Position numbers and translations under genes: made by a program. The notes under the pieces were generated by a model. That model searched no databases, was not told the origin of the DNA, and saw nothing but the letters and a program-made list of their open reading frames with translations. A stretch of DNA of 64,000 nt from Lacihabitans soyangensis (lineage in GTDB: Bacteria > Bacteroidota > Bacteroidia > Cytophagales > Spirosomataceae). The stretch covers positions 1 to 64,000 of the forward strand of contig NZ_RJUF01000005.1 in NCBI RefSeq assembly GCF_024343775.1, written 5' to 3'. Positions 40,909-41,862 of this stretch are shown one piece after another (the stretch's first letter is position 1; every line of letters begins with the position of its first letter).

Positions 40909-40982
40909 CGCAATTACACTTCATCAACAAACTAAAAACCAAATAATATTTTTGTTAAAATATTTTTCTGTAACAAATATGC

Positions 40983-41036
40983 AAAAAAAAGGGCATGAAA
41001 AAAATAATTCAAACATTTTTCTTTCTCACGCCCTTT
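40983..41036 (-). terminator. Strong intrinsic terminator of the tRNA-like RNA gene
   Basis: AAAGGGCGTGAGAAA (41036 back to 41022) pairs with TTTTTCATGCCCTTT (41002 back to 40988) with two mismatches, followed on the minus strand by a U8 tract. It begins only 4 nt after the encoded CCA. Confidence 0.85.
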
Positions 41037-41039
41037 GCA

Positions 41040-41210
41040 TGGCTGTAGGAGGGGGAGTCGAACCGCCCACGATGCAGTTAGCCAAAGAGCAAAATTTGGT
41101 GGTCAACCCCAGTCGGAACTGAAAAAACCCGTTCGGCTTTACTCTACGTTTATCCTGTAACCATCACCCCCGAGACAGGAGGGCACGGCTGCCAATTTCG
41201 TCATCCTACA
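41040..41210 (-). ncRNA. Stand-alone RNA with tRNA-like ends and a 99-nt variable-region insertion
   Basis: The minus strand gives a 7-bp acceptor (TGTAGGA with TCCTACA), TG, a D-arm (ACG, loop AAATTGGCAGC with the G18G19-like pair, CGT), an anticodon-like stem CCCTC/GGGGG around loop CTGTCTC, then about 99 nt, a T-stem GGCGG/CCCCC with one C-C mismatch and loop TTCGACT, discriminator G and encoded CCA. Length is 171 nt. The D-arm resembles tRNA-Leu. Inside the insertion are hairpins at 41110-41121 (CAGT-TCCG-ACTG) and 41082-41099 (CCAAA/TTTGG). CCTGT/ACAGG (41154-41179) could compete with the anticodon-like stem. It is too long for a tRNA, and no tmRNA signature or tag frame is seen. Function unknown. 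Confidence 0.7.
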
Positions 41211-41256
41211 GTATTATTAAGAACTAAATTGTTTTCGCCTCTCTCTGAAAACATTA

Positions 41257-41283
41257 CAAAGGTAATACCAATATTTGATTCAA
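41257..41283 (-). promoter_or_regulatory. Promoter of the tRNA-like RNA gene
   Basis: TACCTTTG (41264 back to 41257) is a perfect -7 match, with TTG (41283 back to 41281) 16 nt upstream. Transcription would begin near 41250, about 40 nt before the mature 5' end at 41210, leaving a short leader for RNase P to remove. Confidence 0.5.
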
Positions 41284-41400: not shown

Positions 41401-41862
41401 ATGTTAAAAGAAAATATTGACGAAATAGACCTAAAGATTCTTAGAATATTAATAGAAGACGCCAAAGTTTCATATGGCGAAATAGGTGAAAAAGTGTTTC
41501 TGTCGCCCGGGGCGGTGCATACACGGGTAAAAAAAATGGAAACCACTGGGATAATTACGGGTAGTAGCATCAGTGTAGACACCAAAAAACTAGGCTGGGA
41601 CATAGCGGCTTTTCTTGGAATTTACCTCGAAAAAAGTGAGCAGTATGACGACGTAGCCGCACAACTAAAAATAATTCCAGAGATAGTGAGTATCAATTAC
41701 ACCACCGGAAATTACAGTATCTTTGTGAAATTAATGTGCCGTGACACCGCTCATTTGAGGAATGTTTTGCACGATAAAATACAAAAAGTACAAGGAATTC
41801 AACGAACCGAGACCTTTATTTCGTTAGAAGAAAGTCTCTCCAGAACAGCACCAATTATTTAA
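41401..41862 (+). CDS. Lrp/AsnC-family transcriptional regulator
   Basis: 153 residues. N-terminal helix-turn-helix (IDLKILRILIEDAKVSYGEIGEKVFLSPGAVHTRVKKMETTGII) and a C-terminal RAM/AsnC ligand-binding domain (FLGIYLEKSEQYDDVAAQL, VSINYTTGNYSIFVKLMCRD). Such proteins form multimers that bind amino acids and regulate amino-acid genes. The next gene follows after 1 nt, a coupling that need not mean a shared function. Effector unknown. Confidence 0.92.
   Translation: MLKENIDEIDLKILRILIEDAKVSYGEIGEKVFLSPGAVHTRVKKMETTGIITGSSISVDTKKLGWDIAAFLGIYLEKSEQYDDVAAQLKIIPEIVSINYTTGNYSIFVKLMCRDTAHLRNVLHDKIQKVQGIQRTETFISLEESLSRTAPII

Follow-up and report, generated by a model that had tools for sequence, protein, structure and literature searches.

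Evidence for an unregistered tRNA-derived RNA family in Bacteroidota and phages, proposed to carry asparagine outside translation

A 64,000-nt stretch of the Lacihabitans soyangensis genome (contig NZ_RJUF01000005.1, positions 1–64,000; hereafter the window) contains, on its minus strand, an RNA gene that ends like a tRNA and holds about 100 nt where a variable loop would be expected. What kind of RNA is this, and what might it do if it does not decode? The initial annotation had described a tRNA-like RNA with a 7-bp acceptor, a D-arm with GG, a TTCGACT T-loop, G73, an encoded CCA and an insertion of ~99 nt, and had proposed it as a new RNA not made for ordinary decoding. The description held (the insertion is about 98 nt), and the proposal is supported by comparison, without transcript data. 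It had not recognised that the family is old and also occurs in phages, that it stands close to tRNA-Leu, or that it bears a signature of aspartate identity and GatCAB recognition.

A complete tRNA body with a structured variable arm

The gene encodes a complete class-II tRNA body with a structured variable arm of ~98 nt (Table 1) and is single-copy in its own genome. The acceptor has 7 bp (TGTAGGA/TCCTACA), the D-stem 3 bp (ACG/CGT) with GG in the D-loop, and the T-loop TTCGACT is followed by discriminator G73 and CCA. The T-stem mismatch of the initial annotation is more plausibly a bulge of one base (GGG-C-GG : CCCCC); in outgroups the stem either has no bulge or carries a TT bulge. The variable arm comprises stems V1 and V2, a conserved GAUAAA/CUAA internal loop, a further stem and a GGGGUUGACCACC hairpin. 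Encoded CCA is peculiar to the window RNA and some close relatives, and G73–C74 is kept in 117/117 distinct bacterial rows; a gene end of N73 plus C is also seen in most ordinary tRNA genes of the window's genome.

Table 1. Features of the RNA locus in window coordinates.
Feature	Position	Strand	Basis
27-nt element GGTTTTTAGTTTGTTGATGAAGTGTAA	40914..40940	(-)	one copy each in 23/39 relatives, at most 2 mismatches
Terminator-like hairpin and T run directly 3' of the RNA	40981..41038	(-)	read from sequence
Encoded C and A of CCA	41040-41041		adjoin mature RNA end C74
RNA, mature form U1 to C74	41042..41210	(-)	sequence, conservation, covariance model match of 144 bits
3' acceptor strand TCCTACA, G73, C74	41042..41050	(-)	C71, A72, G73, C74 in 65/65
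T arm with one bulged base	41051..41068	(-)	sequence; complete pairing of helix 7 across 18 sequences
Variable arm, about 98 nt	41069..41166	(-)	alignment and pair counts
Anticodon-like arm	41167..41183	(-)	CCCTC-CTGTCTC-GGGGG
Anticodon-like loop CTGTCTC	41172-41178	(-)	GUC at 34-36, U37, C38
5' acceptor strand TGTAGGA, starting U1 G2	41204..41210	(-)	U1, G2 in 65/65 unbiased bacterial rows
Bacteroidota-type promoter, TTG (41281-41283) and TACCTTTG (41257-41264)	41257..41283	(-)	promoter motif enriched in the upstream regions of relatives
Divergent Lrp/AsnC regulator gene, candidate regulator of the RNA	41401..41862	(+)	Pfam PF01037, E 6.1e-18

Single-sequence folding of the window RNA was no better than that of shuffles (z 0.50), and comparative evidence was therefore used. 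We built a covariance model (R1) from 18 members. With the structure written by hand, 30 pairs were scored over 18 sequences and were 93.7% paired, against 84.7% in shuffled controls and 50–58% in slid registers, and 61 double-change cells were observed where shuffling gave 19.2 and slid registers 2–17. The acceptor, D, anticodon, T and variable-arm helices are backed by covariation, and the cloverleaf criterion (acceptor, D, anticodon and T helices) is met by pair counts and covariation together. Within the arm, V1 has one pair that alternates between GC and AU, followed by one found as UA, GC, AU or GU; all three pairs of V2 vary, with 87% of cells paired; and the three tested pairs of V3 are only 57% paired. 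The alignment of relatives shows a fixed tRNA frame around a greatly varying arm. A lack of compensatory changes would have counted against the initial annotation, and they are present.

The ~98 nt inserted in the variable region could suggest a pseudogene, an intron-bearing tRNA or a relative of tmRNA. We regard all three as virtually ruled out: the insertion is a paired, covarying arm that shrinks stepwise to nothing across the family, and a pseudogene is excluded because the RNA is strongly conserved. No Rfam family matched the window RNA at its gathering score; relaxing the limit to E 10 brought up only unrelated matches, all weak (best 0.18). There was no over-threshold match to tmRNA (RF00023) and none to the Rfam intron families, and the insertion lies in the variable region, not in the anticodon loop; an ordinary tmRNA is encoded separately in the same genome (contig C180, 109 bits). 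A match to a known Rfam family would have counted against the initial annotation. ARAGORN made no call anywhere in the window. The gathering score of the tRNA family (RF00005) was met neither by the window RNA nor by a short relative, L041, but was exceeded by one 77-nt member (L350; see below). Elsewhere in the window's genome, two adjacent sub-threshold tRNA-like matches were observed (G000:C19:68890-69034, locus L087; 20.3 and 18.4 bits), where ARAGORN is silent.

The smallest members have 77 nt and lack the long arm, and the largest complete one observed in bacteria has 196 nt. The 77-nt form (L350, genome G047) keeps the acceptor ends, the D-loop and a CTATCTC loop, is called tRNA-Asp(AUC) by ARAGORN and scores 40.8 bits with RF00005; some phage members of 91–96 nt are called tRNA-Asp(GUC). 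As these short forms keep the ends and the loop without the arm, the arm is best seen as an elaboration and not as a defining part.

The nearest ordinary tRNA, by model scores, is tRNA-Leu. In the window's genome, R1 scores three of the four tRNA-Leu genes highest among ordinary tRNAs (53.6, 46.3 and 44.0 bits), with tRNA-Ser and tRNA-Tyr at 25–34 bits; at E up to 10, neither the fourth tRNA-Leu nor the tRNA-Asp was matched. The RNA shares with tRNA-Leu the 3-bp D-stem, the D-loop AATTGGYAGAC and the position of a long variable arm, but differs in having G73 instead of A73, a GUC-type loop with pyrimidine 37, U1:A72 and an arm of up to about 100 nt.

Distribution in bacteria and phages

By blastn, the RNA was found in 43 of the 59 genomes searched as relatives, the window's own included. 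Searching the order with R1 (E 1e-22 or better) gave about 212/291 positive genomes, counted by eye. Two genomes were scored negative yet have a member, one split over a contig end (G049) and one in the 77-nt form (G047). Weaker R1 matches of 83–88 nt fit tRNA-Leu, as shown in the window's own genome. A phylum-wide sample contained about 31/296 positives (by eye), 11 of them from the order, 18 from families f23, f24 and f27 of the class and 2 from f66, which belongs to a different class; sampling that class gave 4/149 positives at E 1e-18. Scanning named genomes with a sequence pattern returned at least 120 rows, and the 80 listed are all Bacteroidota by title, including Spirosoma, Dyadobacter, Runella, Emticicia, Aquirufa, Algoriphagus, Cyclobacterium, Flammeovirga and Portibacter as well as Chitinophagaceae and Saprospiraceae bins. 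Plasmids gave no match.

Some hosts carry tandem arrays of two to five copies; those with three to five include L182 (3687-4630), L363, L364, L351 and L352. In other hosts (L152, L190, L198, L135, L171) a long form with a GGGUUGACCAC hairpin stands beside a short form without it, and a division of labour between the two is conceivable.

The TTG/TACCTTTG promoter proposed in the initial annotation is supported: counting only the first gene of an array, TANNTTTG occurs within 150 nt upstream in 129/151 distinct upstream regions, whereas 200 shuffles gave 18 on average and never more than 32. The terminator proposed after CCA is seen, by reading of the sequence, as a hairpin and T run; processing by RNase P, also proposed, is inferred and no more than plausible. 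Further downstream, the 27-nt element is followed by a second terminator-like hairpin and T run. Of the 23 relatives with this element, which span several families and have it once per genome, 22 keep it without a single change, and it lies about 13–110 nt past the 3' end of the RNA where this was compared. It may be a 3' trailer or a second element.

The family extends to phages. The 18-base anticodon arm is present in 84 stretches of viral contigs, and 79 of 80 listed viral loci match R1 over its full length (82–147 bits), the remaining one being cut by a contig end. A looser pattern returned at least 120 rows from viral contigs, and 49/55 new loci match R1 at E 1e-15 or better. Genes near the RNA support phage identity: terminase or portal genes at L281, L276 and L338, DNA ligases at L333 and L295, and a phage RNA ligase/tail gene at L322. 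Some phage copies sit within ordinary tRNA arrays; an ordinary tRNA-Asp is part of 12 such arrays, and 29/80 loci have no ARAGORN tRNA in the examined stretch. In an annotated phage collection, blastn found a single matching record, an unannotated 636-kb metagenomic phage with 71% identity. RNA-bearing phage contigs also encode a tryptophan-halogenase-like protein (L302, 3-1085) and a GroEL-like chaperonin (L295, 11958-13520).

A GACCAC motif occurs in the arm of 78/80 phage loci, and the 20-nt loops after it are rich in palindromes. Perfect palindromes of at least 6 nt are found in 37/43 distinct loops (26% in shuffles) and of at least 8 nt in 22/43 (7% in shuffles), and none of 500 shuffle sets reached the observed mean; related phages are not independent in these statistics. 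The palindromes include GCGCGC, GTGCAC, TGCATGCA, GCCGGCCGGC, TCCTGCAGGA and GTTGCAAC. As a six-base palindrome cannot close on itself, pairing between two RNA molecules is the natural reading, and phage forms may dimerise through a kissing loop that varies in sequence, an inference from the sequences. Six-base palindromes of this kind resemble the HIV-1 dimer initiation loop. Bacterial arms showed nothing beyond chance overall (palindromes of at least 8 nt in 26/122, mostly within shuffles), and one palindrome, CGAGCTCG, recurs in a few bacterial loci. An extra self-complementary D-loop hairpin was seen in some phage versions (L271, L302, L339, L270). GOLLD and ROOL are likewise structured RNAs found near phage tRNA arrays, and they self-associate as is proposed here for the phage forms, but they have no tRNA body and are much larger.

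Considering structure and distribution together, we are almost certain that the RNA represents a genuine family, derived from tRNA and so far unregistered, in Bacteroidota and phages. No description of it was found in the open-access literature searched (subscription papers and preprints were outside the scope).

Identity and decoding positions

We examined 65 distinct bacterial rows not chosen by any anticodon pattern (the unbiased rows of Table 1). U1, G2, U3, A70, C71, A72, G73, C74, U35, C36 and C38 are invariant (65/65), and G34 is present in 62/65, with A or C in the other three. The published aspartate identity set (PMC9976931, PMC6523644) is accordingly met at G73, G34, U35, C36, C38 and G2:C71. 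Two further features of tRNA-Asp are unmet: G10 is found in only 7/65 rows, and U1:A72 in 65/65 takes the place of G1:C72, a pair that bacterial tRNA-Asp is reported to keep strictly and that is said to help its positioning in AspRS.

The replacement of G1:C72 bears on a second enzyme, since U1:A72 is a determinant for the amidation of Asp-tRNA by GatCAB, and G1:C72 of tRNA-Asp is an antideterminant (PMC9976931, PMC4206432). In phages, U1:A72 is found in 59/59 distinct rows of one alignment (A3) and 42/44 readable rows of another (A4), where U1 is present in 43/45 and two members have A1:U72. Only tRNA-Asn and tRNA-Gln start with U among the 32 distinct ordinary tRNAs of the window's genome; U-starting tRNAs of phages are not limited to these two.

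The marks of a decoding tRNA are lost. U33 is present in 56/65 bacterial rows (A in 6, C in 2, G in 1), and position 37 is U in 60 and C in 5, never a purine. In the window's genome 31/32 ordinary tRNAs have U33 and 31/32 a purine at 37, and among phage tRNAs both counts are 275/284. The family does not meet the decoding criterion of U33 with purine 37, and the initial argument that pyrimidine 37 speaks against ordinary decoding held in all 65 rows. A working but unusual tRNA-Asp isoacceptor would explain the anticodon GUC of most members and the ARAGORN calls of short ones. We consider this very improbable given pyrimidine 37 in every row, the loss of U33 in 9/65, arms of up to about 100 nt, and an ordinary tRNA-Asp with A37 both in the window's genome (which also has its tRNA-Leu genes) and beside 12 phage copies. 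Beyond the shared identity positions, the RNA differs from tRNA-Asp in U1:A72, the absence of purine 37 and its Leu-like body.

Other synthetases were considered. The RNA shares U1:A72, G2:C71, G73 and U35 with the GlnRS identity set and lacks four others that the set lists, G3:C70, G36, A37 and U38 (table in PMC9976931). The tRNA-Leu discriminator A73 is unmet (G73 in 65/65), which speaks against LeuRS. Invariance at 35, 36 and 38 is not expected of a SerRS substrate. Charging by LeuRS or SerRS is not excluded by any test. A mimic of the anti-Shine-Dalgarno sequence (CCUCCU in the anticodon stem) was dropped because L041, L141 and L143 change that stem.

Charging might also be irrelevant, the RNA being a tRNA-shaped structural or regulatory molecule whose arm (in phages, through dimerisation) acts, for example, by binding a protein or a ribosome factor. 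The large conserved arm motifs, the palindromic phage loops and the 29/80 phage loci without ordinary tRNA favour this reading. We consider it unlikely, as the arm is dispensable (the 77-nt and 91–96-nt members keep the ends and the loop) and the identity positions are invariant.

GatCAB, an AsnC-type neighbour and the proposed role

An Lrp/AsnC gene lies divergently upstream in 73/107 usable loci, with a gap of 122–284 bp to the nearest RNA copy, and is kept (55–57% identity) in two f66 genomes of another class (L351, L352). It is absent beside the RNA in 34/107 loci, including Cyclobacteriaceae, Saprospiraceae and Flammeovirga; these 34 host loci have no shared neighbour gene, the largest family covering only three. 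We searched ten genomes with the window's regulator as query (E 1e-25). Five (G018, G028, G037, G042, G093) have no match and also lack the RNA. A match is kept in G047, G191, G227 and G315, and the one in G030 is of 34% only.

The window's genome encodes GatB, AsnRS and one AspRS. Searching for GatB only, we found it in 263/291 genomes of the order, the window's included, and in 207 of the 212 RNA-positive genomes (by eye). The RNA is thus carried by 207/263 GatB-positive and 5/28 GatB-negative genomes (Fisher 2e-10, not corrected for relatedness), and the five RNA-positive genomes without a GatB match are all fragmented assemblies. Ten RNA-negative genomes that we examined have ordinary unfused GatB and, where it was read, AspRS of the K type.

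A second, dedicated AspRS was not found in the relatives, each of the 39 having one copy over the cut-off, with the exception of G023. There, a second AspRS is spread across two contigs, and the 27-mer that normally follows the RNA is on one of them. Between the AmiA-like gene and the 27-mer/DUF819, where the RNA and the regulator would lie, G023 instead has a small frame, GatA (its best model match, under the cut-off) and GatB fused to AspRS; R1 found no RNA there. The small frame is possibly GatC-like, by reading of the sequence and with no model match behind it. Other genomes were examined because of unusually weak GatB scores. GatB::AspRS fusions were found in G028 (1106 aa), G030 (1105 aa) and G102 (a second GatB, 1126 aa), and G125 shares this divergent GatB, in a frame that is still open where its locus ends. 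The RNA is missing from all five genomes (G028, G102 and G125 by model; G023 and G030 by blastn only), and G023, G028 and G030 have no other GatB match. The four fused AspRS read RDHG, and the housekeeping enzymes read RDK in 35/36 readable cases and RDM in one; the His of RDH marks a non-discriminating AspRS. In these Cytophagales-type genomes, GatA adjoins fusions of about 1,105–1,126 aa at L380 (3422-7457) with L379 (2-598), L403, L404 and L409. The fusion and the RNA may represent two solutions to supplying GatCAB with an amidatable Asp-RNA, a fused non-discriminating AspRS or an RNA charged by a discriminating one. This is not proof: the fusions may have arisen independently only a few times, and the analysis did not extend to the second GatB matches of two RNA-positive genomes (G085, G218).

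As the best explanation, we propose a tRNA that does not decode, built on a scaffold like that of tRNA-Leu. It would be trimmed, completed with CCA and aspartylated by the housekeeping AspRS through GUC, C38, G73 and G2:C71, after which GatCAB would recognise U1:A72 and amidate Asp to Asn. On the ribosome a GUC anticodon would place Asn at Asp codons, and the RNA would be kept off it by pyrimidine 37 and the oversized arm, in several lineages also by the lost U33, and in the window's family by the bulged T-stem. It would thus be a dedicated carrier for tRNA-dependent asparagine synthesis under the neighbouring AsnC-type regulator, and phages would carry copies to raise the asparagine supply of the host. 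The tRNA-Asn of GatCAB-dependent asparagine synthesis (the transamidosome; PMC4206432, PMC9976931) shares U1:A72 and the step from Asp to Asn, here only proposed; our RNA differs in having C36 instead of U36, which makes it readable by a discriminating AspRS, and in its proposed exclusion from translation. A tRNA diverted from translation to another pathway is known in the non-decoding tRNA-Gly of the staphylococcal cell wall, which differs in amino acid, pathway and scaffold and is ordinary in size.

We favour this reading because it accounts for the identity positions, the lost decoding positions, U1:A72, the AsnC neighbour and the replacement by GatB::AspRS, and we give it a probability of roughly 0.5, as transcription, charging and amidation are all inferred. 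Against it stand the replaced G1:C72 and rare G10, the ordinary GatB of the ten RNA-negative genomes, the missing AsnC gene in 34/107 loci, the five RNA-positive genomes without GatB, the two phage members with A1:U72 and the three bacterial rows with A or C at 34. A bolder version, in which the RNA is an AsnC-regulated cofactor of amino-acid biosynthesis that is replaced in some lineages by the GatB::AspRS fusion and borne by many phages as an auxiliary metabolic RNA, dimerising in its phage versions, is one that we lean slightly against. It is also possible, though less likely, that the RNA is aspartylated and not amidated. It would then serve another transfer of Asp, or titrate or sense AspRS or aspartate, and the AsnC-type regulator would set how much of it is made. 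The same aspartate identity positions, lost decoding positions and AsnC-type neighbour support that alternative, but it leaves U1:A72 and the GatB::AspRS replacement unexplained.

The family is widespread, yet its long forms, where tested, are missed by ARAGORN and its short ones called ordinary tRNA-Asp. If the asparagine-carrier reading is true, this would be a tRNA that serves metabolism alone. Bacteria with both GatCAB and AsnRS sometimes also have GlnRS and no asparagine synthetase (PMC4206432), and the RNA would hint at what GatCAB is for where AsnRS is already present, a question raised in that work. Phages, in turn, would alter the amino-acid supply of their hosts by means of an RNA and not a protein.
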